From Cucumis sativus (lineage: Eukaryota; Streptophyta; Magnoliopsida; Cucurbitales; Cucurbitaceae): a stretch of 64,000 bases of DNA. Each line of letters starts with the position of its first letter. The stretch's first letter is position 1. The notes under the pieces are model-generated. The model saw only the letters and a list, made by a program, of their open reading frames with translations. It had not been told where the DNA came from and searched no databases. The position numbers and the translations under genes are program-made. Shown here piece by piece: positions 1 through 40,259 of this stretch. The DNA lies in assembly GCF_000004075.3 (NCBI RefSeq), contig NC_026658.2:23052075-23116074 (forward strand), written 5' to 3'.

Positions 1-2625
1 CCAACTGCTAGTTTGAATCCCCTTGCCAAGTTGCTCGCTGATGGACTTCTAAATCATGAAGGACAGAAATGGGTCAAACACAGAAAGATAATTAATCCTG
101 CATTTCATTTAGAAAAGCTTAAGGTATCATCTTTCTCTTCCATATCACTTTTCAACTATTTTAAAATTAACTTTCACAAACAAATATAACAAGCTAGTTG
201 TCTATCCAAATCTTATATATGAGAGCAACATGAATACTTGGAATCATATTTGTACAATGAATAAAGCACATACTTATTTGAACAAGATATAAACATATAA
301 GCTTATAATTGTTACTTTTACCTTTGAGTATCTTCGTTTCCTTATTTACTTTTTAGGGACTGTCTTCAAAATCCAAAGCAACCTTTGAAAAAAAAAAAAG
401 AATGGTTAAGATTTGTTCTTGGTTTTTGGAATTGGGTATGAATTCAATGAAACAAGAAATATAAAAAAGGTGATCAAAACTTGTTCTTGGTTTTAAGAAA
501 TAGTTCTTTAGTAACTATTTATGTTTCTAGAACTCATTGAACGTTGTCAAACAATACATATAATTTCAAGATCTTCATATATCATACTCTTTTGTAAAAT
601 CTGTTGAAATATAACCAGTGATCATACATATCTTTACAATGGTTGTTAGGATATGGTACCAGCATTCTATCACAGTTGTGACGAGATGATTAGCAAATGG
701 GAAAGCATGGTTTCAGTAGAGGGATTTTGTGAGTTAGATGTAATGCCTTACCTACAAAATATGACTGCTGATGTGATTTCTCGAACTGCATTTGGAAGTA
801 GCTATGAGAAAGGAAAAAAGATCTTTAAGCTTCAAACTGAACTAGGTGAGATGGTGATGCAATCTACCTTAGGGATTTATATTCCAGGATGGAGGTAAAA
901 ACCTAATTCATCTACAACATTATTATATAGATCTATGGTGAAAGATTTCATATATCATGATTTCTATTTTGTGCAGATTTCTACCCACAAAGTCAAATAA
1001 TAAAATGAAAGTGATAAGTAAAGAGATATCAACTTTGATCATGGATATTATAAATGAAAGGGAAACGTCTATGAAGTCAGGTGAAGCTATACAAACTGAC
1101 CTACTAAGCATTCTCATGGAATCCAATTTGAACGAAATTAAACAACATGGAAACAATAAAGACATTGGAATGAGCATAGAAGATGTTATTGATGAATGCA
1201 AACTATTCTATATCGCTGGCCAAGAAACTACAGCTACATTACTGACTTGGACGATGGTATTGTTGAGTTCATACTCAGAATGGCAAGAACGAGCAAGAGC
1301 AGAGGTATTTGAGATCTTTGGCAACAAGAAACCAGATTATGATGGTTTAAGTCGACTAAAAGTTGTGAGTGTGATGATATTCTTCTACATTTACTTTATT
1401 TTTTTTCTACTTTCCTCATATTAATTTTACCTCGTATATGTTAAATGCCCATCTTCTTATACAAAGCAATCACATTAGAGTTTTGGAGGTAAGAGTAGTC
1501 TAGATAGGTTTCTAGTTCTAATCTTAATTAAACTGAACCAAGCCTATTGCCTTTGGATTGTGTAAGTTGAAAGGATTTGGCTATTTGATAAACTTGACAC
1601 CTAAGAAGTGTGATCATTTTCTTTCGAACTAGCATGCTCATGAGTGTTAGACACGATGGTTCGTATCATACACTTGTTACTGCAATATATGTTTTAGAAA
1701 CTAGGTTATACAAAGTAATAGGTCCAACAATTGTTAGATATGCATTGAACAATTGTTGAGCATATACACTAAATACACATATATGACAAAAATAATAAAA
1801 TTTGATAGTGAAATATAAATACATCAAACTTATTTCTTTAAGCATATAAATGCATACAGTAGTAAAGACTTCCTAAAGCTTTAGCTAAATCAGTGACTGA
1901 GCATAGTTCAGTCAGATCAGCGACAAATAAATCAATGTTGAATTTCTTTCTCGCTTAATAATGATATTTATATATTTTTTTAAGAATAAATGTGTCCTTG
2001 TCATCTGTTTGTGTCATAAATTAAAAAAAGTGGCGTGTCACCGTATAGTTGTCGTGTCATATCTATATCTTGTATTTGTATTTTTTTCTTAGTCTTGACA
2101 CTTTAACAAGTGACTTTTGAAAGGATCTATTTCCTAAAAATATATATATTAACTAACAGATGGCAAATGACTTTTGCAATGACTCAGGTAACTATGATAT
2201 TGAACGAGGTTCTCAGATTATACCCTCCGGTGAGTATGTTTGGTCGTTTAGTTAAAAAAGAAACAAAGCTTGGAAAGTTGACTTTACCAGCAGGAGTTAT
2301 GTTGGGCTTACCAGTTGTTCTTATGCAATGTGATCCTGAGTTATGGGGAGAAGATGCACATGAATTTAAACCAGAAAGATTTTCTGAGGGAGTTTCTAAA
2401 GCAGCAAAAAATCCAGGTGCTTTTGTACCATTTGGTTGGGGTCCTCGAATATGCATAGGACTAAACTTCGCCATGATTGAAGCAAAAATGACATTATCAA
2501 TGATTCTACAGCGCTTCTCGCTTGAGCTTTCGTCATCGTATACACATGCTCCCATTGCTGCCATAACAACACAACCTCAACATGGAGCTCATATCATACT
2601 ACACAAATTGGAATTAGTTACTTAA
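1..2625 (+). CDS. CYP72A: CYP72A cytochrome P450, copy A (3' part; 5' end outside window)
   Basis: The visible exons are 1-123, 650-894, 977-1364 and 2188-2625; exon 1 and the start of exon 2 lie left of the window. Family knowledge: CYP72A enzymes are ER-anchored monooxygenases that oxidise terpenoids or gibberellins with electrons from P450 reductase. Visible motifs are the I-helix AGQETT, the K-helix EVLR, FKPERF and the haem loop [10 protein letters not shown] with its cysteine ligand. The C-terminus ends HKLELVT, four residues longer than in the other copies, which stop after HKL. Intron 4 (1365-2187) is the longest of the five copies. All visible exons are open and spliced phases match copies B-E, so the gene looks functional as far as it can be seen. 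The substrate cannot be told from sequence. Confidence 0.88.
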
Positions 2626-7123: not shown

Positions 7124-10100
7124 ATGTGGTATGTTCCTGATACGGTTTCAACTCCCACAGTAATGATAATTAGTTTTGTTTTAGTGTTATTATTGTTATT
7201 GGGATGGAAATTAGCTGATTGGATTTGGTTTCGGCCGAAGAAATTAGAGAAGCTTTTAAGGCAGCAAGGATTCGCCGGGAATTCATACCGGATTCTCCAC
7301 GGCGACTTGAAGGAGAGTGCGGCCATGAGAGAGGAAGCAATGTCCAAGCCCATGAAGTTCTCCAATCATATTGCTCCACGTGTCATTCCTTCTGTTCATC
7401 AAACCATCCAGCATTATGGTAACACTTTATCCCAAACTTCCTTTCTTATTTTTCTTATTTTTTTTCAGTAATAAAGGAAAATTGTCAAAAATTTACCCTC
7501 AGTAAAAATATCCAAAAATCAAGTGATTTTGTTCGATTTTGTTCTATATGGGTAAATAATTTGTCAATTTTCTTTTTCTATTTTTGAAAAAAAATTAATA
7601 ATAGAATACACTAAAGTCAGTTTATTGGGAAAATTTTTAGTTTTAGAAAACTGGGTATGAAATGCCTATGATGCCCTTACATGCTTCCTCCCACCTCACC
7701 TTTTTCTCTCATTTTTTTCCCTCTAATTTCTTTCTAACTTACTTTTCGTACTAATAAAATTGATTTTAAAATATCAAAAGTATTTTTCATCATTTTATTT
7801 AGTCTTTAAAATCAATTTTAAATCTCATAAAATCAATTTTCATAAATTTGTTTGTCTACGAATTGATTTTACAAAATTAGTTCTACTTATTTTTTTTTTT
7901 CTTTTCAAAATACTCCAACTATCACTCTTAAACGATAAGTACCGTAATCATATAATTTTTTTTAATTTTTTTTAAATATTGTAAAATAAATTTAAATATA
8001 AAAAAATAGCAAAATATCACTTCAAATTGAGTTAAAAAAATTTAAAACATAATTTTTTTTCTTTTTTAAATATACTAAACAAGGAGCTTTTTTTCGGGAA
8101 GAGCTCGCTTCCAGAAAATTTCTTTCGAGATTTTCCACCTCCACCCAAGTAAAATTGAAGGGGAATTAATTTTCGTGATAATACATGAATGAAACGAGAG
8201 CACAAAATACTTAAAATTTTTGGTTAAAGTATTCTTTATTTTATTTTACGTTTGTGTTTTCATAGTTAATTCATTAAAGTTACCAATAGTTTTGAAAGTA
8301 AAATTTAAAGGACTATTTTGTTTGATTGGGAGTGTAGGGAAGAATTCATTCATGTGGATTGGGACAGTGCCAAGAGTGCACATAATGGATCCTGAGCAAC
8401 TCAAAACTGTGTTCTCATTCATCAATGATTTCCAAAGGCCAACTATGAATCCTCTTCTCAAGTTGTTTACAAATGGTCTTTTCAGTCATGAAGGACAAAA
8501 ATGGGTCAAACATAGAAAGATTATAAGCCCTGCATTTCATTTAAAGAAGCTTAAGGTATCTCTATCTTTTTCTTTCTCTCCCTATATGTATATATATACA
8601 TATCTCATTTTTAAACTATTTTATCATAATCTTACTAGCTATGACCAACATACTCTTACATTGCCCTATATATAGGATATGATACCCGAATTCTATCATA
8701 GTTGTAACGAGATGGTTAGCAAGTGGGAAAGCATGGTCTCTGAAGAGGGATCTTGTGAGTTAGATGTAATGCCTTATCTCCAAAATATGGCTTCTGATGT
8801 GATTTCTCGAACTGCATTTGGGAGTAGCTATGAAAAAGGAAAAAAGATCTTCGAGCTTCAATCTAAATTAGGTGCCTTTGCAATTCAATCTAGCTTAGGG
8901 ATATATATTCCAGGATGGAGGTAAAACTTAACCCATCTACAACATTATGATACATCTATAGACTATGGTGAAAGATTGTATATCATGAATTATGTTTTGT
9001 GCAGGTTTCTACCCACGAAGTCAAATAATAAAATGAAAGAGATAAGTAAAGAGATATCAACTTTGATATTGGGTGTTATGAATGAAAAGGAAAAGTCTAT
9101 GAAGGCAGGTGAAGCTATACAAACTGATCTACTAAGCATTCTCATAGAATCCAATTTGAATGAAATTAAAGAACATGGAAACAACAAAGGCATGGGATTG
9201 AGCATACAAGATGTTATTGATGAATGCAAGCTTTTCTATATTACTGGTCAAGAAACTACAGCAACATTACTAATTTGGACGATGGTATTGTTGAGTTCAT
9301 ATTCAGAATGGCAGGAGCGAGCAAGAAAAGAGGTATTTGAGATCTTTGGCAACAAGAAACCAGATTATGATGGTTTAAGTCGGCTAAAAGTTGTAAGTGT
9401 GATTATATTCTCCAACATTTACTTTCTATTTATTTATTTTTTCCATTTTAATTTCATCTCATTTGTGAAATTTAAATGTCAACCCTATGAATCAAAACAA
9501 TCCCATGAGATAGTTTTGAATATATGAATATTCAACAAAGGTTTCTTAGCTTAATCTCAATCAAGTGTATTAACTTTGGATTTTGTAAATTGAAACTATA
9601 AAGGTCATTTGATAAAGTACTTGGCATATAAGAAGCACAAACAATTTGATTTGGCTAGCATGTTTATGTGTGTCAAGCACTTATGGTCATTTTTTGACAT
9701 GATTCAAACACTTGTTAGTGCAATAGATGTGTGATAGAAACTAGGTGTACAAAGTCAAGTAGGTATAACATTTATTAAATTTAATAGTTGTTGAGTGTAC
9801 TAAAATAGACAATATATGACCAGAATAATAAATTTTAATAGCAAAATACATCAAACTAATTTTTCTAGGTTTTGTAAAAGTGATATGCCACTAAATGGAT
9901 ATCGTGTCATATTTATATCTTGTATTTGTATATGTGTTTCTTTGCTAGATAGCATGTTGGCAAGGAGTGAGTACATCGTCTTTGACGTGTGGCTTTTGGG
10001 AATGTATCCTAAAAGGTTATGTATTAGCTAATAAATGATAAGTGACTTTTGCTATGGCACAGGTGACTATGATCTTCAATGAGGTTCTCAGGTTATACCC

Positions 10101-10488
10101 ACCTGTGAGTATGTATGCTCGTACTGTGAATAAAGAAACAAAACTTGGAAATTTGACTTTACCAGCAGGAGTGATGTTGAGTTTACCAATTATTCTTATC
10201 CAAACTGATCGTGAGTTATGGGGACAAGATGCACATGAATTTAATCCAAATAGATTTTCAGAAGGTGTTTCTAAAGCAACAAAAAATCCATGTGCTTATG
10301 TACCATTTGGTTGGGGTCCTAGAATATGCATAGGACTAAACTTTGCCATGATTGAAGCAAAAATGGCATTATCAATGATCCTACAACGCTTCTCATTTCA
10401 GCTTTCTCCATCATACACACACACTCCTATTGCAGGTTTAACAACACAACCTCAACATGGAGCTCATATCATACTACACAAACTCTAG
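7124..10488 (+). CDS. CYP72A: CYP72A cytochrome P450, copy B (523 aa)
   Basis: Five exons: 7124-7418, 8338-8555, 8676-8920, 9005-9392 and 10063-10488, with GT-AG introns. The ATG at 7124 gives the family-type N-terminus MWYVPD, a membrane helix at about residues 12-31 and the hinge [18 protein letters not shown]. Motifs: I-helix TGQETT at 333-338, ExxR at 389-392 and haem loop [10 protein letters not shown] at 464-473 with Cys471. Two departures from its neighbours: the I-helix Ala is Thr333, and PERF reads PNRF (444-447). The 3' part of intron 1 and its acceptor differ from the other copies (GTAG/GGAAG instead of GCAG/GCAAG). The role is presumably an ER monooxygenase of specialised metabolism; the substrate is unknown. 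Confidence 0.92.
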
Positions 10489-10657: not shown

Positions 10658-10663
10658 AATAAA
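10658..10663 (+). terminator. poly(A) signal AATAAA of copy B
   Basis: AATAAA in the conserved context TTAAATAAACA lies about 170 bases after the stop, in the same relative place as in the other copies. Confidence 0.5.
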
Positions 10664-17360: not shown

Positions 17361-20300
17361 ATGTGGTATGCTCCCGATACAATAATAAGTATTGTTTTAG
17401 TGTTATTATTATTATTGGGATGGAAATTAGCTGATTGGATTTGGTTCCGCCCCAAGAAATTAGAGAAGCTTTTAAGACAGCAAGGATTCGCCGGAAATTC
17501 TTACCGGATTCTCCACGGCGACTTGAAGGAGAGAGCCGCCATGAGAGAAGAAGCAATGTCCAAGCCCATGAACTTCTCCAACCATATTGCTCCACGTGTC
17601 ATTCCCTCTATCTATCATACCATCCAACGTTATGGTAACACTTTTATTCCCTATTTTTCCTTCTCATATATCCTTTTCTTCTTCTTCTTCAAATAAGATT
17701 TCAAAGAAATAAATTAAAATTAGGGTTTCATTTGGTATTGAAGAGCTGTGTTTTATATGATTACATTTCTATTTACTGTTTGAAAATTAATTTATTACTT
17801 CTATCCATTTTCAATCAATGTTTTACAAAAGTAATGCAAATTTTTAAAGACTAAAACTGCTCTAGTCTTTTCCTTTTCAGAATTTACTTATTTTTACTTC
17901 ACAAAAATGAAAACCATGGTATGCAATTGGGAGGCTTAATTTAATTTCTATCTTAAAAGAATGTAAAAAAAAAACAATTTGTATGCTCTCATGGAAGTAA
18001 CATATATACTATGTATTTGCTGAAAATATTGAGTCACTAGTTAGTTTATCGATTTATTTAGGAAAGAAATCTTATTAAATTGTAACACTAAATTCTAAAA
18101 TAGAGATTAAATAATTACAAATTTTAAAGAATAGTAACTAAATTTTTCTATAGTAAAGATCAGGGACTATGGATTAAATCGTGATAAAATAAAGTATAAA
18201 AACTAAATTGCTATATTATTGTATAAGAACTAAGTTATGTACTGGGATTTTAATATATTCAGCAGCCAACCTATATTTACATACATAGTTTAACAGAATA
18301 AAATATAGATAGGATAGAAAAATAGAAAATTTATTGTAATGGGAAGAAGTATTGTTCAAAATAGTAACATGTATCGCTTTAGTAAAATGGTGCCTAAAAT
18401 GGATTATCATCAACTCCCAATATGTTGATTTTAAACTGTGCAGGCAAGAATTCATTTATGTGGCTTGGTCCCATACCAAGAGTGCACATAATGGACCCTG
18501 AACAACTCAAAACTGTGTTCTCATTCTACAATGATTTCCAAAAGCCAACTATGAATCCCTTTACCAAGTTGCTTGTACAAGGAATTGTAAATCTTGATGG
18601 AGAAAAATGGGTCAAACACAGAAAGATAATCAACCCTGCATTTCATTTAGAAAAGCTCAAGGTATCTATAGCTTTTTCTAAAAGTGAAAGAGATGACTAT
18701 TTCAGTTTTTTTTTTCTTTCAAAATACACTTTTATTATTATCTATAGTTCCTAAGAAACAAGAAATGCAATAAGAAAACGAAAAAAAGTTATCAAACGAA
18801 GTACCTAATTCTAAGTTCTCACACATACCTTTACATTGGCTCGTAGGATATGGTACCAGCATTCTATCACAGTTGTAACGAGATGGTTAGCAAGTGGGAA
18901 AGCATGGTCTCTAAAGAGGGATCTTGTGAGTTAGATGTAATGCCTTATCTAAAAAATATGGCTTCTGATGTGATTTCTCGGACTGCATTTGGGAGCAGCT
19001 ATGAGAAAGGAAAAAAGATCTTCAAGCTTCAAACTGAACTAACTAATTTTGTGATTCAAACTACCTTAGGGATATATATTCCTGGATGGAGGTAAAAACA
19101 CTATTTATATCCAACATGATTGTATATACATCTATTGTGAAATAATTCATGTCATGATTATTATTTTTTGTGCAGATTTCTACCCACAAAGTTAAACAGA
19201 AAAATGAAAGAGATAAGCAAAGAGATAACAACTTTGATATTGGGTATTATGGATGAAAGAGAAAAGTCTATGAAAGCAGGTGAAGCAATACAAACTGATC
19301 TATTAAGCATTCTCATGGAATCCAATATGAATGAAATTAAACAACATGGAAACAAAAAAGACATTGGAATGAGCATAGAAGATGTTATTGAAGAATGCAA
19401 GCTTTTCTATATTGCTGGCCAAGAAACTACAGCAACATTACTAGTCTGGACGATGATATTGTTGAGTTCATACTCAGAATGGCAAGAGCGTGCAAGAGCA
19501 GAAGTCTTTGAGATCTTTGGTAACAAGCAACCAAATTATGATGGTTTAAATAGACTAAAAGTTGTAAGTGTGATATCATTCTCCAACGTTTACTCTCTAT
19601 TAATCTTTTTTTTTTCATTTTGATTTCATCTCATATGTGAAATTTAAATGCCCATCTTCTAGTATAAAACAATCACATGAGCAAGTTTTGGAGGTATGAG
19701 TGAATATTCTTGGAATGTTTTCTAACTAAATCTCAATCAAGCTTATTGTCTTTAGAAGTTGAAGAGTATAAAGGCTACGTGATAATTAAACTTGACATCT
19801 AAGAAGCACAAACATTTTAATTTAACTAGGGTGTTTGTGTGTCAGACACTTAAGACACTCTAATAGGTTTCAAACACCTTGTTAGTATAATAGATTTATG
19901 TTAGAAAACTAGTTGTACAGTGTCAAACAAGTCCAACATTTATTTATATGCAACCAATGATGATTGGTATACTAAATAATTTATAAGCATATAAATGAAG
20001 GACTTCTTTGACCTTGAAGTTTTTTTCTTGTATAAAACTGGATTAAACATGTCCTTATAATGCCCATGTCCTCATTTATAACAGTGGCCACTATGTGGTC
20101 TCGTGTCGTGTCATATTCATATATTGTATTTGTATATGTGTTTCTTAGCAAGATAAGTTGTAAAAGAGTGACACATTGGCATGTGACTTTTGAGAATAAT
20201 GTGTCCTAAAAAGGTATGTACATGACAAGTGGCTTTTGCAATGGTGCAGGTAACTATGATCTTCAATGAGGTCCTCAGGTTATACCCACCAGGGAGTCTG

Positions 20301-20675
20301 TTTGTTCGCATTGTTAGGAAAGAAACAAGACTTGGAAATTTGACTTTACCAGGAGGAGTAATGTTAGGCTTACCAATTGTTCTTATCCAACGTGACCCTG
20401 AGTTATGGGGAGAAGATGCACATGAATTCAATCCAGAGAGATTTTCTGGAGGAGTTTCTAAAGCAACAAAAAATCCAAGTGCTTTTATACCATTTGGATG
20501 GGGTCCTAGAATATGCATAGGACAAACCTTTGCTATGATTGAAGCAAAAATGGCATTATCAATGATTCTACAACGTTTCTCATTTGAGCTTTCGCCATCG
20601 TACACACACTCTCCCATTGCCAGTTTAACAACACAACCTCAACATGGAGCTCATATCATACTACACAAACTCTAG
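17361..20675 (+). CDS. CYP72A: CYP72A cytochrome P450, copy C (516 aa)
   Basis: Five exons: 17361-17634, 18444-18661, 18847-19091, 19176-19563 and 20250-20675. Exons 2-5 have exactly the lengths seen in copies B, D and E. Exon 1 is 21 bases shorter than in B, so seven residues are missing just before the membrane helix ([14 protein letters not shown]). Motifs: I-helix AGQETT at 326-331, ExxR at 382-385, FNPERF, and [10 protein letters not shown] with Cys464. After the K-helix the usual PPVS is PPGS, and after the haem loop it reads GQTFAM where A and B have GLNFAM; both could shape the active site. It is probably an ER-bound monooxygenase; the substrate is unknown. Confidence 0.92.
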
Positions 20676-20844
20676 CTACCCTCTTAAAATATATATTATT
20701 AGCTTGCAAATTATAAAAAGGCTAGGAAAGTACTCTGCTGCTTTGTCTATGTATAATTTCAAATCCTTTGTGAAAAAGATACCTACACAAGGAATTGATA
20801 TCCTTTCAACTAGACACCTTTTCACTGCTACCCAGCACCTAAAT

Positions 20845-20850
20845 AATAAA
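20845..20850 (+). terminator. poly(A) signal AATAAA of copy C
   Basis: AATAAA followed by CAGTTTTCAGGCTTGGGAT lies 170 bases after the stop. The surrounding 3' flank matches that of copy E nearly base for base. Confidence 0.5.
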
Positions 20851-21543
20851 CAGTTTTCAGGCTTGGGATGTGATTAATGCTTGTTATTGCACCATTTTCT
20901 ACTAATATTCACAAACTTTTCACCATTTGAAAGGAAACTCAATATCCCTAGTCAAATTTATGCACTACAACTTTTGAAAACTAACCTTTCTTTCTCATTA
21001 GTCCCCCTCAACAGCATTCTACCATAAAATATTCCATACATAAAACAAAATGATCAAAATGAGATGATGAGACTGTAAACACCAATTGTAATACCCAAAC
21101 ACAGAAATTCAAGAAGAGAAGTCTGTAATTCTTGGAAACATCTAACTAAAATAACATTATTAGTTCAGACTATAGTTTTGTTTGATTAGAGTTCATACAA
21201 AAGTACATAAATAAAAATGGTCAAAATCTAAATGGTTGCGTTGCATATATAAATGACAACACAACATGACATAGAGGTAACTAAGATTTGTAAATGAGAT
21301 AATTCTTAGACCAATGGATCAAGTCGTGCAAAATGAAACAAAACTTAACCAACTATTTTACCTAAACTGATTGGGATTTATGGGGTGAGGGGCACATGAG
21401 TTTACCAAAAAAAATTAGATAAAAGTTTAGTGATAATAATCACTAATACTTCTAACTATAAATATTTAAAAATGGAGTGATTGATAATTAAAATTAACCA
21501 AAAAATTAGAAAAGGTAACTGAATAATAAATTACAAACTCTAA

Positions 21544-22805
21544 ATAGAAAATTTTGAGACCAATCACAAATTGTCACATCATTTACTAAATTAATGATGA
21601 AAAATACAAATATTTAAATTTGAAACTAATTAAAAAATTGACAGGTGTCCTAAATTAAAATTGAAAACATAAATGAGTCAATTCTAATGATGTCACATGT
21701 TTTCATTATGACCGTTGGATCAAGTTAATTATTTTGGTTCAATTAAATATTATGTACTTGAGCTAAGTTCAAATGAGCCCAAAAGTAAGCTTAATTTAGC
21801 TCGAATACTAAATATGACCCATATCCATATTCATGTGGTTAAGTCCATAGGTCTAGTCCATAGACCAACTAGACTCAACCCATAAAGTTCATCAAAGAAC
21901 TCTATAAAAAGAGGAGTTCTCCTCATTTGTAAGAAGTTGATCACCCTTGAAGATTGAAGCTATTTTGAAGATACAAGATATCTTCCAAGACTCCAACTTC
22001 AACAAGCTCTCTTCCAATACTCCAAAGAATTTACCCAAGAGCTAGAAGACTCCCTAGCTTCTGAAGTCGACCGACCTCGAAGATTAAAGCTCATTTGAAG
22101 ATACAAGATCTCTCTTCCAACACTCCAACTTCCCTCGAAGATTAAAGCTCCTTTGAGTTTTCTTCTAAGACTCCAACTTCTCCAACTTCAAGAACATCAC
22201 GTGCTTTGCTTCCTCCAAATCAAGCGTAGACGTTCAATCGAGAGAGAATCAAATGATCAAATTCTAGCAATCGAACCACATCGCATCAAATCAACAAAAC
22301 TATAACATCAACTTAAGTTCAACTCCACAAATCAAATTTCTTCAAAAATCTTGTGCGAACAAATTGGCATGTCCAGTAAGACCTCTCTATTTCTCATCTC
22401 TCTCTCGCATCAAATCAACACAAGCACAACATCAACTCAAGTTCAACTCCACGAATCAAATTTCTTCGAAAATCTCGTGCGAACAAATCTACATACCTAA
22501 ACCCATGGACTCAACCACATGGATTTTGGTCATATTTAGCATTTGGGCTCAAGTAATCTTATTTTTGGGCTCAATTGAACTTAGCCCAAGTAAACAATAT
22601 TTAATTGAATCAAAACAATTAACTTAATCTAACGGTTAGGATGAAAACATGTGACATCATCATAATTGGCCAATTTATGTTTTCAATTTTAATTTGGGAC
22701 GCATGTCAATTTTTTTAATCAGTCTCAAATTCAATTATTTCTACTTTTCATCGTTAATTTAGTAAATGATGTGACAATTTGCGATTGGTCTAAAAATTTC
22801 CTATT
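21544..22805. mobile_element. Element with about 290-bp inverted repeat arms, non-coding
   Basis: The left arm (about 21544-21830) and the right arm read backwards (22805-22505) match over their whole length. Examples are AGACCAATC, AATTGTCACATCATTTACTA, AAATTAAAATTGAAAACATA and TGATGTCACATGTTTTCAT. Between the arms are a TATA-like CTCTATAAAAAGAGGAG, clustered TTGAAGATT/CTCCAACTTC runs and a direct repeat of about 95 bases (22275-22375 against 22403-22500, including CATCAAATCAACA and CAAATTTCTTC). No protein frame was seen. It may be a Mutator-like or fold-back element, or two head-to-head copies of an LTR-type repeat. It lies upstream of copy D. Confidence 0.6.
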
Positions 22806-23877: not shown

Positions 23878-26800
23878 ATGTCGTATGTTGTAGATACGAT
23901 TTCAAATCGCATAGTAATGATAATCAGTTTCGTTTTATTGTTAGTATTATTAATATTGGGATGGAAAATAGTTGATTGGATTTGGTTCCGCCCGAAGAAA
24001 CTAGAGAAGCTTTTAAGACGGCAAGGATTCACCGGAAATTCATACCGGATTCTCCACGGCGACTTGAAGGAGAGTGCCGCCATGAGAAAGGAAGCAATGT
24101 CCAAGCCCATGAACTTCTCCAATCATATTGCTCCACGTGTCATTCCCTCTGTCTATCATACCATCCAAATTTATGGTAAACACTTTATCCCCAACATTTC
24201 CTTCTCATCCTTTTCTTCTTCTTCAAATAAGATTTAAAGAAATAAATAAAAATTAGGGTTTGATTTATTTTATTACATTTTTGTTTTGTGTTTGAAAATT
24301 AATTTTATAAACTTTTATTATTTCATCTCTATTTTCAATCAATCCTTTACAAAACCATGTAAATTTTTAAACACTAAAACTACCCTACTTTTTTTCCTTC
24401 TTAGAATAATTTACTTATTTTTACTTGAGAAAAATTAAAACGTGTAAGCAAATGGAAGGCTTAATTTAATTTAATTTAATTTAATTTAATTTTGTTTTTT
24501 TAAAAGAAAATTAAAACAATAAAACACATATTCCAAGTAACAATTTGAATATTTGGAAAGATATAATTTCAATTTTATAACAATTTAGTCATAATTGAAA
24601 TCTATCTTCAACTTTTATTATTTTATGAGGTATAATATACTATGTATTTGGTAAAAATACCTTGTCACTTATTAGTTTTTCGGCTTATTAATGAAAGAAA
24701 TTTTATTCAATTGTAACACTAAATTCTAGTATAGAATTTAAATAATTACAAATTTTATAGGATAATAACTAAATTTTTATATAGGAACTAAATTGCTATA
24801 TTGTTGTAATAGCTCCAAGAAGTAAAAGTATATATATCAATGGTCCTCGAAGTTATGTTTACTGAATTTCTACACAAATTAGGATTCTAATATATTCAGC
24901 AGTCAACCTAATATATACATAGTTTAACAGATTAAAATAGAGATCATTGGATAAAAAAATTGAAAAATTATTTTAAAGGGTAGAAGTGTTCAAAATATTT
25001 TACATCTATCACTTCAGTAAAACTATGCCTAAAATGGATTATCAAGTCCCAATATATATGTTGATTTTGAACTGTGCAGGCAAGAATTCATTTATGTGGC
25101 TTGGTCCCATGCCAAGAGTGCACATAATGGACCCTGAACAAATCAAAACTGTGTTCTCATTCATCAATGATTTTCAAAAGCCAACTATGAATCCCCTTAC
25201 CAGGTTGCTCGTACAAGGAATTGCAAATCTTGAAGGAGAAAAATGGGCCAAACACAGAAAGATAATCAACCCTGCATTTCATTTAGAAAAGCTTAAGGTA
25301 TCTATATCTTTTTGTAAGAGTGAGAGAGATTACTATTTCTACTTCTTCTCTTCGGGTTTGATAACCATTTTGGTTTTTTTTTTCAAAATACATTTTTATT
25401 ATTATCTCTACTTCCTAAGAAACAAGAAATATAATAGAAAGCGAAAAAAGTTATCAAACGAAGCACAAAATTTCAAGTTCTCACGCATACGTTTACGTTG
25501 GCTTGTAGGATATGGTACCAGCATTCTATCACAGTTGTAACGAGATGGTTAGCAAGTGGGAAAGTATGGTCTCTAGAGAGGGATCATGTGAGTTAGATGT
25601 AATGCCTTGTCTTAAAAATATGGCTTCTGATGTGATTTCTCGAACTGCATTTGGGAGTAGCTATGAGAAAGGAAAAAAGATCTTCAAGCTTCAAACTGAA
25701 CTAGGTAATTTGGTGATTCAAGCTAGCTTAGGGATATATATTCCAGGATGGAGGTAAAAACACTATCCATCTACAACATGATTATATATACATCTATTGT
25801 GAAAGAATTCATATCATGATTAATATTTTTTGTGCAGTTTTCTACCCACAAAGTCGAACAGGAAAATGAAAGAAATAAGTAAAGAGATAACAACTTTGAT
25901 ATTGGGTATTATGAATGAAAGGGAAAAGTCTATGAATGCAGGCGAAGCAATACAAACTGATCTGTTAAGCATTCTCATGGAATCCAATATGAATGAAATT
26001 AAACAACATGGAAACAATAAGGACATTGGAATGAGCATAGAAGAAGTTATTGAAGAATGCAAGCTTTTCTATATTGCTGGCCAAGAAACTACAGCAACGT
26101 TACTAGTCTGGACGATGGTATTGTTGAGTTCGTACTCAGAATGGCAAGAGCGTGCAAGAGCAGAAGTCTTTGAGATCTTTGGTAACAAGAAACCAAATTA
26201 TGATGGTTTAAATAGACTAAAAGTTGTAAGTGTGATAACTTTCTCCAACATTTACTCTCTATTAATCTATTTTTCTTATTAATCTATTTTTCTCATTTTG
26301 ATTTCATCTCATATGTGAAATTTAAATGCCCATCTTCTAATATAAAACAATCACATAAGCAAATCTTGGAGGTATGAGTAAATATTCATGAAATGTCTTC
26401 TAACTAAATCTCAATCAAGCTTATTGCCTCTAGATATCATGGAAGTTGAAAAAAAGATAAAGGCTACATGATAAACTTGACATCTAAAAAGCACAAACAT
26501 TTTAATTTGACTTAAGGTAGACATGTGTAAAATTCTATTCAACGTGTCTTCATAATGTTCATTATATAACAGTGACCCCTCTATTCATATATTGTATTTG
26601 TATCTATGTTTCTTAGCAAGACAAGTTGTAAGAGAGTGCATGACACATTGACATGTGACTTTTGGGAATGTGTCCTAAAATTATATGTACATGACAAGTG
26701 GCTTTTGCAATGGTGCAGGTAACTATGATCTTCAATGAAGTCCTCAGGTTATATCCACCAGTGAGTATATTTGGTCGCATTGTTAGGAAAGAAACAAAAC

Positions 26801-27144
26801 TTGGAAATTTAACTTTACCAAAAGGAGTAATGTTAGGCTTACCAATTGTTCTTATCCAACGTGACCCTGAATTATGGGGAGAAGATGCACATGAATTCAA
26901 CCCAGAGAGATTTTCTGAAGGAGTTTCTAAAGCAACAAAAAATCCATGTGCTTTTATACCATTTGGATGGGGCCCTAGGATATGCATAGGACTAAACTTC
27001 ACCATGATTGAAGCAAAAATGACATTGTCAATGATTCTACAACGCTTCTCATTTGAGCTTTCCCCATCATATACACACAGTCCTAGTGCAAGTTTAACAA
27101 CACAGCCTCAACATGGAGCTCACATCATACTACACAAACTGTAA
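23878..27144 (+). CDS. CYP72A: CYP72A cytochrome P450, copy D (524 aa), C/B chimera
   Basis: Five exons: 23878-24175, 25080-25297, 25509-25753, 25838-26225 and 26719-27144. The N-terminus begins MSYVVD. Motifs: AGQETT at 334-339, ExxR at 390-393, FNPERF, and [10 protein letters not shown] with Cys472. Departures: the residue split across exons 3 and 4 is Ser where the others have Arg (GWSFLPTK), and GLNFTM follows the haem loop where A and B have GLNFAM. Exons 2-4, introns and the first part of exon 5 resemble copy C. From about 26960 onward, including the 3' flank, the sequence follows copy B (GGACTAAACTTC; ACCTTCTTAAACTATGTA). This points to unequal crossover or gene conversion inside exon 5. 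The gene looks intact. Confidence 0.92.
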
Positions 27145-27317
27145 TAATTACCTTCTTAAACTATGTATTAGCTTGCACAATTATCATAATTAAGACTAGG
27201 AATGTTCTCTGCTTTGCTTATAACTTCTAATATATCATTTGAGAAAATTTTAGTTACACATGTTCTTTATATTTTCCTTTCAACTAAATTTTCTTTTTCA
27301 TTACTCACTGGCTCGTA

Positions 27318-27323
27318 AATAAA
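27318..27323 (+). terminator. poly(A) signal AATAAA of copy D
   Basis: AATAAACAG lies 174 bases after the stop. The flank is the copy B type, not the copy C type. Confidence 0.5.
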
Positions 27324-29159
27324 CAGTTTTCAAGTTAATGGCATCTACATTTTTTTCAACTTGGGATGATTAATCCTTATAATTGTACCATTTTTTGTTT
27401 AATGTGAAGGAAAAATCTCATCAGTCATAAATAATAAGTTCGTTATTCAAAATAGTGAAATTCACGCATTGAAAACTAACTTTTTTTTTTCTCAACGTCA
27501 TTTTTTCAAATGGTTTGTATGCAATGAATTTCTCAGCAGCATTCTATCTAACCTTCAACCATAAAAATATACAACACAACAAAGGTTCAAAATGAGATTT
27601 TGAAACTCTACCCACCAAATGTAATACTCATTGCATATGAAACTCTACCCACCAATTCAAGAAGAGGCTGTAATTCTTGGAAACAACATGCAACTACAAC
27701 TACATTATATTTGGTAAGAGCAAACAAGAATAGAGATCATGGAAGTCTTTGTAACTAGTGGCACTTACTCTAGTTTCTAACGTTTTAATCTATTCAAGTC
27801 CACGTACTTAATTTGGCTGATTTTCATAAAGATAACACACATAAATGGAAGATAAATTAGGATTTGAAAATGCTCAAAAAAGTATATTCTTTAACGTTTT
27901 AAAAGTGATTATATACTTCAATACTATCCCTAAAATTGCTACAAACCTAAATAAATAATATTCACCACACCACAATTATGATAGGATTAAACTCATGGTC
28001 TATGAAATAAATATGTTGAAAGTGGGTTAAGGAACACAATTAGGTACGACTTATTAATAATTCTATTAAGTTTCTGTTTTCCTTTCTTTGAATTTATGCT
28101 AATGGTTTGATTCTATGTTACTGGAGCATGAAGTTTGATAAACAAAATGATTAAGTATTGAATAGGTACACTGTGGAAACAAAAACAAAAATAAGAAACC
28201 ATCAAAATGACACAATTTAAGGAAACATAAACCCAACAAATAACCAACCCAGAAAATTAGTACATTTCAATAGATCAAATGCTAAAAGTAGCTTTATACT
28301 ACTCTAACCTTCTTCAAATGCTATCAAGAAAAGAACATAAGGGACAAAACAACTTCTTCTTTGATGCCCTAAACATAAGTTCTCTACAAATAAAAATAAA
28401 TTTACATTACATTATATCAATAGAGAAAGAAAACCTCCCAATCAACAAAAAAGAAAAAAAAAAACAATCAAAACGTATAAATAAAAATCTCTACATCTCA
28501 TGAGCTTAAGAAAAAGTATCAAGTAAATTATAAGCAGAAAGTTAGAATGAAATCAATACCAATCCAGCCCTAAACAACATCCCTGCAAAAGTTGAATGAA
28601 AGAGATTTTTGCTTAATACTTATTATATTTTCTTGTTTCCAAATATGTTTAGTCAAAACTCAGAAATCACCATGATTTTTCTAGTAATTAGAGGGAGTTT
28701 CTCAAAACAAAGCTAGAAAAAGCAACAACTTCCATGGAAATTTGAAAGGGAGCATTGGATTGGAAGAGATATTCTATTATCTAGTGAAAGCATAGGAATC
28801 AAGATATTCTACACACATATATGATGTTGTTATTGTGGATAGTATAAATGGGTGTAAAAGGAGTATAACTCTCAAACTTAATTCTTTGATTATCACGATT
28901 CCATCTCTGTTTGGTCTCTGGATCTCATCGTCGGCTAACTCATCACCTTCAGCCATGGGTTCTTCATCCAAATTTGTTTCTTTTCACGCTGAATTTTATA
29001 TTTTATATTTGGTTCTTCAGCCATGGGTTCTTCATACATCCTGTGGATTAGCACGCCCTCACTTACTGTGTTCATATATTATTTCTGATCTTGTTTCTAT
29101 TAGGAAGTTAGTTGTGGACTTTTGAAACTTTGTTTGGGCAGTTGTGTGTGGCTAAATTT

Positions 29160-29835
29160 CTTAGATGGAGAAACATGAAGTTGCTCGTCTCATCAGCACC
29201 ATTCTTGATGGAACAAATTATATTATTTGGACCCACCAAATGAGGAGTTTTTTGATAGGTCGAAAGTTATGGAGTTTCTTGCCCATCAAGGTACTCTAAT
29301 TCAACGCTCATGTCCTCACACATCTCAGCAAAATAGAAGAGTTGAACGCAAACATCGTCACATTCTTGACTCTGTTCGCGCTCAGCTTCTATCTGCTGCT
29401 TATCCAAAAAAATTCTGGGGCGAGGTTGCCCTCACCTCTGTCTATATCTTTAATCGTCTTTCTTCAAAAGTCACTCACAATGTTTCCCCATTTGAACGAC
29501 TATACGGTACTTCCCCCTCTTACTTCAATCTCAAGATTTTTTGTTGTGCATGTTTCGTATTATTACATCCTCATGAACATACCAAACTTGAACCACGTGC
29601 ACGTCTATGTTGCTTCTTGGGTTATGGTACTGAACATAAAGGATTTCGTTGTTGGGACCTCATCTCTCAACGATTACGTATATCTCGTCACGTTACCTTT
29701 TGGGAACATCCTCTGTTTTCTAGTCTCTCTTCATTCCATGAATTTCTTTCAAGTCCTCACCCATTCTTCATCGATCCTTCTATTGACCTCTTTCCCACAC
29801 TTGACTCGCCGTCTGACACTACATCACATTGTGGG
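29160..29835 (+). mobile_element. Ty1/copia retrotransposon fossil, broken
   Basis: A short stretch reads like the start of a copia gag (LDGTNYIIWTHQMRSF), followed by a stretch of integrase type (TSQQNRRVERKHRHILDSVRA, NRLSSKVTHNVSPFERLYG) with its C-terminal part (CCFLGYGTEHKGFRCWD). Protease, reverse transcriptase and RNase H are not seen, and no LTR pair was located. It is clearly incomplete and non-functional. It sits in the spacer between copies D and E, where the copy B-C spacer has nothing similar, so it arrived after that duplication. Confidence 0.85.
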
Positions 29836-30070
29836 TAAAATGAAAGCATTTGAAGTTAATATACTGTACAAATACAAATAATAGAAATAATGGTTGAGAT
29901 TCACCGGTGAGATCAGCGATGCAAGGGGTGTTGGGTGGTGGCGTCGGCTGAAGGAGAGAAATAGGAGGATTTCTGGCGTGTTGTTCCCGACGTGCGTGAG
30001 AGAGGGAGAGAGATGGTTAGCGGAGGGGAGGAAAAATCGAGAATGAGGGGTGACGCGTGGATCTTCCATA

Positions 30071-30112
30071 AAGAAGAAGAAAAAAAGAAGAAGAGAAGAA
30101 GAAGAAGAAGAT
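30071..30112. repeat. (GAA)n microsatellite
   Basis: An imperfect run of GAA triplets lies to the right of the copia fossil. Confidence 0.85.
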
Positions 30113-30345
30113 GAGGAGGTAGGGGAAGGGAAAAATCTTATTTTAATAAACTTTTGATTTAAAATGAATTTTATTTTAATAAATTAAATAAATTATTTTT
30201 TGTATCTTTTATGACACCAAATAACTGTCACGAAAAGTGAAATACGAAAAACTTCGTCTTTTCCCCCTAAAAACTCGAATTTTTAGCTTTCATGACAGTT
30301 TTTTTTTTCTCCTTTCAATTTGGGATGTATACAACTGTCATAGTA

Positions 30346-30364
30346 GGTAGTTTTTCTTGTAGTG
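30346..30364 (-). mobile_element. CACTA-type terminal inverted repeat (one end)
   Basis: Read on the minus strand this is CACTACAAGAAAAACTACC, the classic plant CACTA terminus. It ends exactly where homology with the copy C upstream block resumes (GTTGTATATA, 30365 against 15291), so it marks an insertion boundary. Just inside are ATGACAGTT / AACTGTCA motifs in inverted orientation (30190-30340). The partner end was not found between 27950 and 30340, so the size is unknown; the copia fossil may be nested within it. Confidence 0.65.
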
Positions 30365-30479
30365 GTTGTATATATATAATTGAGTTGAATTGGATTAATG
30401 ATATTTGTTGCATTTATTTATGAACTAAAAAAATTGTATTGGGTATTTTTGTTTGCTTAACTATTTATGTAACTATTCA

Positions 30480-31690
30480 TTATCCATTATGCTTAATACC
30501 CGTATAGTCATGTGTCACACTCCTTCAAAACACATGACATGTAATTTACTCCATACTTACCAAATTGTTTATAGATAGTGGTATTTGGTAAATTTTGAAG
30601 AATACACGTATCCGTGAAATGTCCAAAGAAACAGAATGTAGAATTTGTGGAGATTTTGAGATTTTCTAATTTCTAAGATTTCTTTAATTTTTATTTATTT
30701 AGTTCATTTATTTATTTTAATATTATATTTTCTCAATTTTTGTGTTCCAGTTGTTTCTTATTTAAATACAACAAAAATAGATATATTAGAATTGAAATTG
30801 CTTAAATAAAACTATAATATGTATTTGCTTTAATATGAATTTTAGAAGTAAAAGTATTATTTGATATTTGATGTTGTTAAAAAAATAAGATTAGGTTTTC
30901 AATTTAGTTGTCGAAAATCATACCAATATGAGCTTAGTTCAACTGGCACATGCATCTTCTTGTGGACAAGAGGTCCCGAATTCAAATCCTCATCCCAGCA
31001 TTTATTATAATACATTTGTAAAAAAGAAAATGATATCTTTCAATAATTCAATTAATGATTGTCCTATGTAATTTTGACGAATTCAAAAGGTTACGTAAAT
31101 GTAATTTTATTTTAAATTAATGATTGTCCTATATAATTAATGATTGTCCTATATTAGAGTTATGTGTAATATACATATAGCCATGTGTCATTGAAGAAGT
31201 TGAGAGTCCCACATATGAAAAACTAAGGAGACTCATATTCTATATAACATAGATATGTTAGATTCATATTCCATATAACATAGATGAGTTACTTCTTTTA
31301 AGTGACTACGTAATCTACCGTTATTTTGTAAGTTTTGAAGAATACAGATATGGGTGAAATGTAAAAAAAGAAAATGGAAGAATTTCCTAATTCAAAGTTT
31401 TCTTTTAATTTTTATTTTCTTTCTTTATTATTATTTATTTATTTATTTATTTTAATATTTTATTTTTTCAACTTTCCTATTTATTGCGCCTTATTTTTAC
31501 CCCAAGAAACTATTGCTTAAATAAAACTACCATATATATTTGCTTTAATATGAATTTTAGAAGGAAAAGTAGTATTTGATATTTCATATTATGTTAAAAT
31601 ACTATAACTATCCAAATATTAATGGGGTGGACAATAATAATATATCTTTCAATAGTTCAATTAATCATTGTAATTATGACAAATTAAAAA
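30480..31690. repeat. Upstream block of copy E, tandemly doubled
   Basis: The unit corresponding to 15415-16130 upstream of copy C appears twice here, roughly 30480-31080 and 31150-31690. Both carry TTTTGAAGAATACA followed by GTGAAATGT, then TTTGCTTTAATATGAATTTTAGAAG, then TTTGATATTT. Copy E thus has a longer, duplicated distal promoter. Confidence 0.65.
30928..31024 (+). mobile_element. tRNA-derived SINE-like insertion
   Basis: About 95 bases absent from the corresponding copy C flank. It has an A-box-like TTAGTTCAACTGG and a B-box-like CGAATTCAAATCC, spaced as in a tRNA gene, and ends in an A-rich stretch before homology resumes at AATGATATCTTTC. It does not fold as a complete tRNA, so it is a SINE or SINE fragment. 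Confidence 0.55.
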
Positions 31691-31806
31691 GTTTACGTAA
31701 AAGATAATGAATACTTTAATGACAAATTAAAAAGTTTACGTAAATGATAATGAACACTTAAATGACAAATTAAAAAGTCTACTTAAACGATAATGAACAC
31801 TTCAAT
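31678..31806. repeat. Three tandem 43-bp repeats
   Basis: Units start at 31678, 31721 and 31764, each beginning GACAAATTAAAAAGT and ending near GATAATGAA plus about 10 bases. The copy C flank has one diverged unit near 16122, so it expanded from one to three upstream of copy E. Confidence 0.85.
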
Positions 31807-33743
31807 CAATTTTTCTTCCACCTCAACAATAAATATATATATTTCAACTCACCAATATCTTACTGTTAATTTTGCATATGCTCATTTTAAATAGTTGTAA
31901 AAAATTTATTTGTTTTTCTTTTAAACTGACTTAATTTCTAAATTAGATATTTTAGAATGTATTCCATACACATTTGTAATAATAATCATTTTGAAAGAAG
32001 TTGTACTTAGGCTATATAACTTTAAAGTAAGGTGTTAAAAGATTAATACATGTTTTTCTTTTCTTTTTGTTTTTTATAGTTTAACAAATAAAATAAAAGT
32101 AACGAAGATCATTTCAACTTAAACAAACAAAATATATATCAATAATTGTTTAGTTAGGTTGAGATTTGGCTTTTAAATCAACTAATTAGTATATTAGAAA
32201 AGCAATAAAATTATTATAATTTAAGTTCATATTTAGGAGATGATTTAACTTAAGGTTTTATAAATATATGAGAATAAAAAATGTGTTTGTATTTAATTTA
32301 TGACATTAAGAATCAAATATAGATTATTTGATAAATAAATAATAAATATGAATCTAATATATTGATAAAAGTTGAGTAATTAAGAACCACTAATAGTTTT
32401 AACTATAATTATTCAAAAATCAAATAATTAATAATCAAAATTAACCAAATATCAAATGTCCAAAAAACAAAGTAATTATCCAATTAATATATTTTAATGA
32501 AAGTGATACTAAATAATAAATTATGCATGAAAATGTTATCAAATTTTCCTAAGAGTTAAGTAATGTGGATGTTGTTTTTTTCTTTCTTTTTTTTTTTTTT
32601 TGTATGATAATATCATCATCTTTGACATAAATAAATGATATTTTATTTAAATTCTGTGAGATCACTTTGACAAATTGTATGCAATAATAAAGTATTAAAT
32701 CACTCAAATTTAATTTTCATTAATTAATTTTAAATAGTTAATTTATTATTTTAAATTAATATTCTTAAACAGTATAACTTTATATATTATATTCATAGAA
32801 AAGAATAACTTTATGAAACAAATTTATAACAATAACATAAATAATAGAAGATGTAAGAAAATAAATATGTTTAAAAGATAAACATAATAATATGTCCCCG
32901 AATACAAACTATATAATATAATAATCTACTCTATCTTTGTTCGTCTTCTAAATTAGAAAAAATATATATATATTTCTAAATAAGAAGAAAATGTTAGTAA
33001 GACAATTAAAAAGTTAATTCAAATAGATGAAAATGGGACGAAACATAAGATCTAATAATAGAACTTTAAACAAATTAATTTCGATATATTGTGATTGAAA
33101 TTAAATAGTGTTGTATTTTCAATAAAACAAAAATGAGGGTGAGGATTACAATCTAACATTTCAACTTGCTTTTTGAGTGAGAGAGATTCAAATTAATCTA
33201 TAACTTTGCAATCTTAAAATATGTGTTAAAGTCACTGCAATAACATTAATATTAAAGTGACATATAAATAGGATTAAATGAGTAAAGAAAAGACTTTTAA
33301 ATTGAGAAGAAAAAAAAAAAAAGATGAACACACGAATTAAGTCGAGAAAATTTTTTTCTTAAATTGTATTCTCATTTTTTTAAAAAAAAATTCTCAAACA
33401 TGTCATGTGATCTTTCGAGAAATCTTAAACCATTTAAAATTATTGATTTATTCTTTAGTTTTATATATATATATATATATAAAGTAAAGTATTATTTGAT
33501 CCTAAAGTTTGATTTAAATCATATTTATGTCACTGAATTTTCAAATTGAATAAGTTTACCAAAGTTTGGTGTTCATACCACTGTTAGGGTAATCTCATTT
33601 TCTATGGCACACATTTTTTCTTCTTAAAAAAATCTTTATTTTTATAATCATTAAATTTAAAAGGAAAAAATCAATATATACTTTTATTGTTTTTCTATAT
33701 GTATATATATGTATTGTGATAACAATTGGAAAGACTGTGGAGT

Positions 33744-33810: not shown

Positions 33811-36649
33811 ATGTGGTATGTTCCCCATATGATTTCAACTCCCATAGTGATCATAACAAGTTTGGTTTTATTGTTATTATTATTCTTGGGATGGAAATTA
33901 GCTGATTGGATTTGGTTCGGGCCGAGGAGATTAGAGCAGCTTTTAAGACGGCAAGGGTTCACCGGAAATTCATACAAGATTCTTCACGGCGACATGAAGG
34001 AGAGTGCTGCCATGAGAAAGGAAGCACTGTCCAAGCCCATGAAATTCTCCAATCATATTGCTCCACGAGTCATTCCATCTGTCTATCATACCATCCAACG
34101 TTATGGTAACACTTTATCCCCTACTTTTCCTTCTCATCCTTTTCTTCTTCTTCTTCTTTATCTTTTTCTTCAAAGAAATAAATAGAAATCAGGGTTTGAT
34201 TTGGTATTGAAGGGCTGTGTTTTATATGATTAGATAATTTCTATTTATTGTTTGAAAATTAATTTTATAAACATTTATTTCATCTCTGTATGTTGTTCTA
34301 TTATCAACTATCTGTTTTCAAAAACAATGCAAATTTTTAAAGATTTTACCATAAATACTGGTGTTATTGGGAGGCTTAATTTTATTTTATTTTTCTTAAA
34401 GAAAAAAAAACACTTTTGATTCTTATACTACTTTGGTTTTGCTTGTAACGATTTACTTTCAATTGTCTAATAATTTAATTCATCTAATATGTCCATATTT
34501 ATTATTTTATGTCTTAGATATACTGTGTATTTGGTAAAGATATTGAGTTTATCGATTTTTTTTTATGAAAGAAATCCTATTAGATTGTAACACTAAATTC
34601 TGCACATAATTTAAACAATAATAACTAGATTTTTATACAAGGATGATACACAATGGACTATCGCAACAAATAAAAGCTTAAGGGGGCTAAAAATATATAT
34701 ATCAAGGATCCTAAAAGTTATGATCAGCAGCCAAATCGCGGCAAAAATGGATATTTACATCTATCACTTTAGTAAAACGGTGCCTAAAATGGCTCCCAAT
34801 ATGTTGATTTTGAACTGTGCAGGCAAGAATTCAATGATGTGGCTTGGTCCCTTGCCAAGAGTGCACATAATGGACCCTGAACAACTCAAAACTGTGTTCT
34901 CATTCTTCAATGATTTCCAAAGGCCAACTACGGATCCCTTTATCAGGCTTCTTATACATGGACTTGTAAGTCTTGAAGGAGAAAAATGGGTTAAACACAG
35001 AAAGATAATCAACCCTGCATTTCATTTAGAAAAGCTCAAGGTATCTATCTCTTTTTGAAGAGTGAAAGAGAATACGATTTCTGCTTCTTGTGTTTTTTTT
35101 TCTTCAAAATACATTTTTATTATTATCTCTAGTTCCTAAAAAATAAGAAATATAATAGAAAACGAAAAACATATAATTTCAAGTCCTCATACATACCTTT
35201 ACCTTGGCTTACAGGCCATGGTACCAGCATTCTACCACAGTTGTAATGAAATGGTTAGCAAGTGGGAAAGCATGGTCTCTAGAGAGGGATCTTGTGAGTT
35301 AGATGTAATGCCTTATCTACAAAATATGGCTGCCGATGTGATTTCTCGAACTGCTTTTGGGAGTAGCTATGAGAGAGGAAAAAAGATCTTCAAGCTACAA
35401 ACTGAACTAACCAATTTGGTGATTCAAGCTAGCTTAGAGACATATATTCCAGGATGGAGGTAGAAACACTATCCATCTTACCACATAATTATATACATCT
35501 ATTGTGAAAAATTTCATATCATGATTTAATATTTTGTGCAGATTTCTACCCACAAAATCAAACAGGAAAATAAAAGAGACGAATAGAGAGATAACAACTT
35601 TAGTATTGGGCATTATAAATGAAAAGGAAAAGTCTATGAAAGCAGGTGAAGAAATACAAACTGATCTGTTAAGCATTCTCATGGAATCCAATATGAATGA
35701 AATTAAACATGGAAGAAACAGTAAGGACGTTGGGATGAGCATACAGGCTGTTATTGAAGAATGCAGGCTTTTCTATATTGCTGGCCAAGAAACTACAGCA
35801 ACATTACTAATTTGGACGATGGTATTGTTGAGTTCATACTCAGACTGGCAAGAACGAGCAAGAGCAGAGGTCTTTGAGATCTTTGGTAACAAGAAACCAG
35901 ATTACGATGGTTTAAATAGACTAAAAGTTGTAAGTGTGATAACATTTCCAACATTTACTCTCTATTAATATATTTTTCTCATTTTTATTTCATCTTCTAA
36001 TATAAAACAATCACATGAGCATGTATTATACGTGTCCTTATCATGCCCATATGTCCAAGATTATATAACAGTTATGTGCCACTATATAGGTGTTTTGTCG
36101 TGTCATATTCATATAGTGTATTTGTATCTACGTTAGCAAGGCAAGTTGTGCGACTTTTGGGAATGTGTTATAAAACGGTATGTATTAGCTAGTACATGAC
36201 AATAGACTTTTCCAATGATGCAGGTAACTATGATTTTCAACGAGGTCCTCAGGTTATACCCACCAGTGAGTATGTTAGGTCGCACTACTAGGAAAGAAAC
36301 AAAACTTGGAAATATGACTTTACCAGGAGGAATAATGCTGAGCTTACCAATTATTCTTATCCAACGTGACCCAGAGTTATGGGGAGAAGATGCACATGAA
36401 TTCAATCCAGAGAGATTTTCTGAAGGAGTTTTTAAAGCAACAAAAAATCCAGGTGCTTTTATGCCATTTGGATGGGGTCCTAGAATATGCATAGGACAAA
36501 ATTTTGCCATGATTGAAGCAAAAATGGCATTATCAATGATCCTACAACACTTCTCATTTGAGCTTTCGCCATCATACACACACACTCCCTTTGCCGCCTT
36601 AACAACACAACCTCAACATGGAGCTCATATCATACTACACAAACTCTAG
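33811..36649 (+). CDS. CYP72A: CYP72A cytochrome P450, copy E (523 aa)
   Basis: Five exons: 33811-34105, 34823-35040, 35215-35459, 35542-35929 and 36224-36649. The N-terminus is [10 protein letters not shown] with a membrane helix, then [13 protein letters not shown], where the other copies have RPKKLEKLL (the hinge is less basic). Motifs: AGQETT at 333-338, ExxR at 389-392, FNPERF, and [10 protein letters not shown] with Cys471. Exon 3 begins AMVP instead of DMVP or DMIP. Intron 4 is the shortest of the array (294 bases). The 3' flank matches copy C. It is presumably an ER monooxygenase; the substrate is unknown. It is the last P450 of the array in this window. Confidence 0.92.
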
Positions 36650-36826
36650 TGCCTCTTAACCTATTTATTATTAGCTTGCACATTATCAGAAGGCTAGGAA
36701 AGCACTGTGCTTTGTCTGGTATAATTTCAAATCCTTTGAGAAAAAGATACCTACTACAAAAGGAATTGATATCCTTTCAACTAGACACCCTTTTCATTGC
36801 CACCCAGCTCCTAAATAATAAACAGT

Positions 36827-36832
36827 TTCAGG
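36827..36832 (+). terminator. poly(A) signal AATAAA of copy E
   Basis: AATAAACAGTTTCAGGCTTGG lies about 180 bases after the stop and is conserved with copy C. Confidence 0.5.
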
Positions 36833-40255: not shown

Positions 40256-40259
40256 TCGT

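Follow-up and report, generated by a model that had tools for sequence, protein, structure and literature searches.

Results

A tandem array of five P450 genes

The window (the whole 64-kb stretch of DNA that was analysed) carries five P450 genes, which we call copies A to E. All five are on the + strand and form a tandem array (Table 1). They are putative members of the CYP72A subfamily. The hallmarks of P450 proteins are the haem-binding motif FxxGxRxCxG and the ExxR of helix K, and we found both in the translation of copy D, the latter as EVLR. The D protein also matches the P450 profile PF00067 over residues 98 to 502 (E value, 1e-85; 288.7 bits against a cut-off of 22.8). Among the matches listed, its best solved relatives are CYP4B1 and CYP3A4.

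Table 1. Genes, segments of copy D, and other coding frames in the window
Feature	Positions	Strand	Remarks
Copy A, from inside exon 2 to stop	1..2625	+	exon 1 and start of exon 2 upstream of the window
Copy B	7124..10488	+	five exons, GT/AG borders, open frame
Copy C	17361..20675	+	five exons, GT/AG borders, open frame
Copy D P450 gene	23878..27144	+	five exons, GT/AG borders, open frame, 524 residues
D exons	23878-24175, 25080-25297, 25509-25753, 25838-26225, 26719-27144 (stop included)	+	
C/E-type part of D, nearest C	25080..26967	+	tree ((A,B),(C,D),E) on 25080-26991; PHI-style test negative inside 25080-26991
Switch interval	26968..26992	+	25 bases in haem-binding motif; B and C identical here; maximum chi-square break 26967/26993
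D exon 5 tail, A/B-type	26993..27141	+	affinity mixed, with several changes in D only; pAU of left tree 0.002 on 26992-27141 (rejected); derived states at 26993, 27000, 27022
D 3' flank, sister to B flank (10490-11115)	27145..27757	+	77% over 658 aligned columns; tree ((B,D),(C,E),A) on 27143-27570
D-E intergenic DNA	27751..32734	+	collinear in pieces with B-C intergenic DNA 14596-17148
Copy E	33811..36649	+	five exons, GT/AG borders, open frame
X8 domain frame	41595-41975		Pfam
Protein kinase exon	47984-48400		Pfam
PPR protein frame	59831-61477		Pfam
SelR domain frame	62326-62700		Pfam

A DNA search of the genome (226.6 Mb) with D exon 5 and a short piece of its flank as the query gave 13 matches. 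The five array copies are 85 to 100% identical to the query. The best match outside the array is 75% identical and lies on another contig.

The gene models differ in a few details. Copy A lacks a stop codon at the site common to B to E, and its frame continues for four residues (ELVT) to 2625 (2608-2625). Exon 1 of C (17361-17634, 274 bases) is 24 bases shorter than that of D and 21 bases shorter than those of B and E; the difference is in frame and near the N terminus. At 25838, the exon 3/4 junction, D alone reads PGWSF where A, B, C, and E read PGWRF, and the altered base is the first of exon 4.

We also noted repeated elements between the genes. A fragment of a retroelement polyprotein (Pfam SH3_retrovirus) lies at 29209-29838 in the D-E intergenic DNA. 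A long inverted repeat at 21543-22805, between C and D, has arms of about 310 bases that are 85% alike and is perhaps a transposable element. Inverted copies of one repeat, 70 to 76% alike, lie at 13228-13850 in the B-C intergenic DNA and at 40253-41296, past E.

Copy D changes affinity within its haem-binding exon

We compared the copies with home-made versions of recombination tests (maximum chi-square, triplet, and PHI-style), written as our own simple scripts. When D was set between C and B, the maximum chi-square break fell at 26967/26993, and 0 of 10,000 permutations reached it. D set between E and B gave the same break, again with 0/10,000. Over 25080-27570, D was C-like at 234 of the 285 sites that distinguish B from C to the left of the break and at 34 of 96 to the right. 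The original prediction had placed a switch inside the haem-binding exon, at about 26960-26990, and the chi-square interval of 26967-26993 overlaps this claim.

We ran 30 triplet tests over 25080-27570. Nine gave 0/10,000, all of them among the 18 triplets that include D, and we concluded from this that D is the recombinant copy. Seven of the nine breaks fell within 26958-26993; the remaining pair lay at 26798/26811 and 27079/27080. The PHI-style test was positive on 25080-27570, 26719-27570, and 23878-27570 (0/2000 each) and negative within 25080-26991 (368/2000).

These tests also bear on a reading in which D is unchanged and only looks foreign, C and E having swapped their 3' ends. C and E are indeed close in the 3' flank (K80, 0.169, versus 0.222 in introns 2 to 4). 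However, we saw no shift when C was set between B and E (633 of 10,000) or when B was set between C and E (6002 of 10,000). D does shift when set between B and E, a test from which C is absent, and 19 sites in 27145-27757 group B with D and set them apart from A, C, and E. We consider this swap very unlikely. None of the 12 triplets without D reached 0/10,000 (the smallest was 94), and an exchange of ends between C and E was rejected on that result.

An assembly artefact that fused two paralogues is more improbable still. Changes unique to D are present to the left and to the right of the joint, the D frame is open, and the window holds no N.

A two-tree likelihood scan in 10-base steps had its optimum at 27140, with 27060, 27150, and 27180 within 2 units of it; 26990 was 6.4 log units worse. 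We set this optimum aside because the change from coding to noncoding rates at the stop codon confounds the scan. We kept 26967/26993 since both the site test and the tree of the tail use ungapped coding sequence, and the coding tail already rejects the tree of the left side. A fair statement is that the departure of D from the C/E group falls at 26967-26993 and that its clear likeness to B starts at some point between about 27060 and 27185.

The two sides of the switch have incompatible trees

On the left side (25080-26991), the best tree was ((A,B),(C,D),E), with a pAU of 0.987; the next two trees had pAU values of 0.037 and 0.022. The SH test, which is conservative, did not reject near alternatives (p-SH, 0.26 for both). 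On the right side (27143-27570), the best tree was ((B,D),(C,E),A), and again the SH test did not reject near alternatives in the 3' flank (p-SH, 0.30 and 0.20). Each tree fell outside the best six on the other side: on 27143-27570 the left tree trailed by at least 52 log units, and on 25080-26991 the right tree trailed by at least 42. A fit with two trees reached -9647.9 log units, compared with -9791.2 and -9793.9 for the single trees. The prediction of a switch stood to fail if one topology held on both sides, and the separate trees that we built were two and incompatible.

Short pieces give weak trees. Even so, the left tree was rejected on 26992-27141, on 27145-27320 (pAU, 1e-52), and on 27321-27570 (pAU, 0.003). 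It survived on 27571-27757 (pAU, 0.245), a piece with little alignable sequence in A and E. The right tree was rejected on 26719-26850 (pAU, 0.014) and survived on 26851-26991 (pAU, 0.19).

The single sites at which two copies differ from the other three follow the trees. On 25080-26991 they number 37 for AB, 13 for CD, 5 for CE, and 1 for BD, and on 27145-27757 they number 4, 2, 20, and 19, respectively. The AB and BD counts of the two segments differ with a Fisher P value of 5e-11. D is a real mosaic gene in a five-copy P450 array, and both parental types are present in the array with it. The two incompatible trees, the breakpoint interval, and the identity of D as the copy that moves are the part of our best explanation that we count as demonstrated.

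The body of D is of the C/E type

CGTGACCCTGA and TTTATACCATTTGGATGG had been put forward as C variants in the body of D, and we found that, among the five copies, they are common to C and D only. In a sliding-window check with 100-base windows, D was 94 to 97% identical to C over exons 2 to 5 up to 26989; one window, which runs into intron 3, was at 89%. Identity fell to 85% and 88% in the last part of exon 5 and to 70% and 75% in the near 3' flank. Over introns 2 to 4, K80 was 0.136 for C-D and 0.369 for B-D. The 5' flank of D was 82% identical to that of E, 73% to that of C, and 66% to that of B. Trees of exon 1 and intron 1 did not separate C from E as the nearest copy to D.

The tail of D points to an A/B-type donor

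Past about 26960-26990, D was predicted to carry B variants. The switch is present, but GGACTAAAC does not point to B alone, because it is present in A, B, and D. The first stretch, 26992-27062, fits A better than B and has ((A,D),(C,E),B) as its best tree. On 27063-27141, the best tree joins B and D. B is the nearest copy to D only in 27063-27141 and in the flank. Matches of D to B only number two in the exon 5 tail, at 27084 and 27090, and become dense from 27180.

We polarised the tail sites with four near outgroup exons (L014-L017; 71 to 75% identity). These are four of six aligned outgroups; L018 and L019 (211 and 200 columns; 70.6% and 71.0%), which have T at 26993, were left uncounted. 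Going downstream from the switch, the first three derived states that D has in common with another copy are at 26993, in common with A and B, and at 27000 and 27022, in common with A only. Thus, the stretch after the switch is of the A/B type and is not merely ancestral. D is a mosaic, as predicted, but to call it a C/B chimera is to be too specific: its body goes with the C/E group (nearest to C on 25080-26991), and immediately past the switch it is of the A/B type.

The similarity of B to D versus C, A, or E showed no significant shift by maximum chi-square (5097, 5784, and 2061 of 10,000). Compared with C and D, B sided with C at 53 of 104 left-side sites and at 37 of 91 in the 3' flank. 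As a separate observation, the exon 5 tail of B (10336-10485) is 92 to 93% identical to C and E, versus 86 to 88% for the rest of exon 5, and B may be partly converted. Given that B has no shift of its own and that D has A-type states in its tail, the donor may have been B before a change in its own tail or a lost A/B-type copy.

The second of these options, a lost or unsampled donor of which B is merely the closest survivor, fits either mechanism discussed below, and its odds overlap those of the other readings. We hold it to be a serious possibility at somewhat less than even odds. Consistently with it, D and A, and not B, have the tail sites 27000 and 27022 in common, the A-D tree is the best one on 26992-27062, the flanks of B and D are only 77% identical, B lacks a shift of its own, and just five of the 13 genome matches reach 85%. 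On the other hand, the tail of B is nearer to those of C and E (K80, 0.085 and 0.070) than the tail of A is (0.149 and 0.142), so B may have changed after it donated.

The change of affinity continues downstream of D

The whole 3' flank of D was predicted to follow copy B. It is indeed nearest to B up to 27757, but at an identity of 77% (27149-27757 of D against 10490-11115 of B) it is no recent copy of B. K80 between B and D was 0.300 in the first part of the flank and then 0.179; for C and D it was 0.419 and 0.430. At 27571-27757 alone, K80 was 0.18 for B-D, 0.43 for C-D, and 0.49 for B-C. If B was the donor, the divergence of the B and D flanks, 0.18 to 0.30, makes the event an old one.

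When we compared the B-C intergenic DNA with the D-E intergenic DNA, we found 13 matches at an E value of ≤1e-6, including the flank and upstream DNA, and these are collinear apart from one internal duplication. Intergenic block 'd' aligned poorly and was left out of the comparison. We found no return to C-type sequence downstream of D, in intergenic DNA most of which has no usable C-D comparator. Pieces of homologous intergenic DNA are also present in A-B and C-D, and the DNA after C lacks the greater part of the unit. Collinearity alone is therefore no proof of crossing-over.

From the collinear downstream DNA, we favour unequal crossing-over over a short conversion. According to this model, misaligned neighbouring genes would have crossed over at or close to the 25-base part of the haem-binding motif in which B equals C, and D would have kept a C/E-type 5' region and body and gained a B-type 3' end together with the intergenic DNA that follows it. 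We give a probability of roughly 0.6 to this reading as a whole, in which the body of D (at least 25080-26967) comes from the C/D/E branch, its tail and flank come from the A/B branch, and the joint was made by unequal crossing-over.

Two observations run counter to the simplest form of this model. A single crossover that made D predicts like divergence on the two sides, but C-D divergence on the left (0.136) is unequal to B-D divergence on the right (0.300 and 0.179). The inequality could be accommodated if C and D underwent conversion later, if conversion was the primary event, or if the donor was a copy other than B. Also, a crossover that made E from C as well predicts C and E as sisters on the left, but the data prefer C and D.

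The main competing mechanism is gene conversion, in which a B-type copy overwrote the exon 5 tail and 3' flank of D (at least 26993-27757) and copy number was unchanged. We think it distinctly the less probable mechanism. A tract of about 0.8 kb is plausible, and with C-D divergence on the left below B-D divergence on the right, the two sides may stem from separate events. However, D does not go back to the C type as far as we could follow it, and the D-E intergenic DNA keeps matching the B-C intergenic DNA in pieces to the next gene, over DNA that lacks a C comparator.

We also tried D as the donor to B, with the tree ((A,E),(B,D),C), and it was disfavoured. This tree fell short by 12.3 log units on 27143-27570 (pAU, 0.059), by 11.3 on 26992-27570 (pAU, 0.097), and by 12.5 on 26992-27760 (pAU, 0.039).

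Separately, the 3' flanks of C and E (20680-20999 and 36652-36970) are about 90% identical, versus 71 to 85% for their introns. This likeness may come from a separate conversion between C and E.

The predicted effect on the enzyme is small

In its last 50 residues, D differs from C at five positions and from B at six. At two of the five positions that separate it from C, D has a state found in A and B or in A; one more reflects a change in C only, and the remaining two are changes of D only. The two in the A/B-type or A-type state both look imported: one is Q to L, which follows CIG just past the haem-binding loop, and the other, in KMTL, is A to T. Elsewhere in the tail, THSPxASLTT resembles C and not B. 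The prediction of a new enzyme combination therefore rests on two residues. It is a weak one, and the novelty is slight in a tail so close to both C and B. As judged from sequence, the effect on the enzyme is probably small, and the 3' flank with the 3' UTR would be the larger inherited change.

A bolder version of the model, which we rate as unlikely, would have the haem-binding motif as the crossover site and D as an old, fixed recombinant in which a promoter and body of the C/E type would be expressed together with a 3' UTR of the B type, the active site being almost unchanged. If this is true, then body and post-transcriptional control would have been paired anew in D.

Discussion

Gene trees of tandem P450 clusters often serve to assign function and orthology, and a whole-gene tree hides the two histories of D. 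Primers or probes in the 3' flank would place D with B, whereas the coding body places it with C and E. The 25-base stretch that is identical in B and C is a plausible kind of recombination site in P450 arrays.

The mosaic in D is of an ordinary kind for recombination between tandem repeats. Exchange between neighbouring P450 paralogues has also produced the CYP2D6/CYP2D7 and CYP11B1/CYP11B2 hybrids. In the titles and openings of abstracts that we searched, we found no literature on this array.

In humans, conversion of CYP21A2 with its duplicated pseudogene causes a disorder (PMC3843699). As in the array, the exchange there is between neighbouring P450 paralogues. In contrast to that pseudogene case, B to E, parents and recombinant together, all have open frames. 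A survey of rice described 377 gene conversions in 626 families, and on the same chromosome their frequency drops with distance (PMC2277409). These are likewise exchanges among plant paralogues. Unlike in the rice conversions, the downstream intergenic DNA also seems to follow in D, which favours crossing-over.

Another close parallel is CYP337B3 of Helicoverpa armigera, a chimeric P450 that confers resistance and has at least eight alleles; the paper names recombination between two P450 loci in its title and uses the term unequal crossing-over 3 times and chimeric 19 times in its text (PMC6211633). D resembles CYP337B3 in being a chimeric P450 from recombination between P450 loci. It differs from that resistance gene in that its joint is near the 3' end of the coding region, so that few residues moved.
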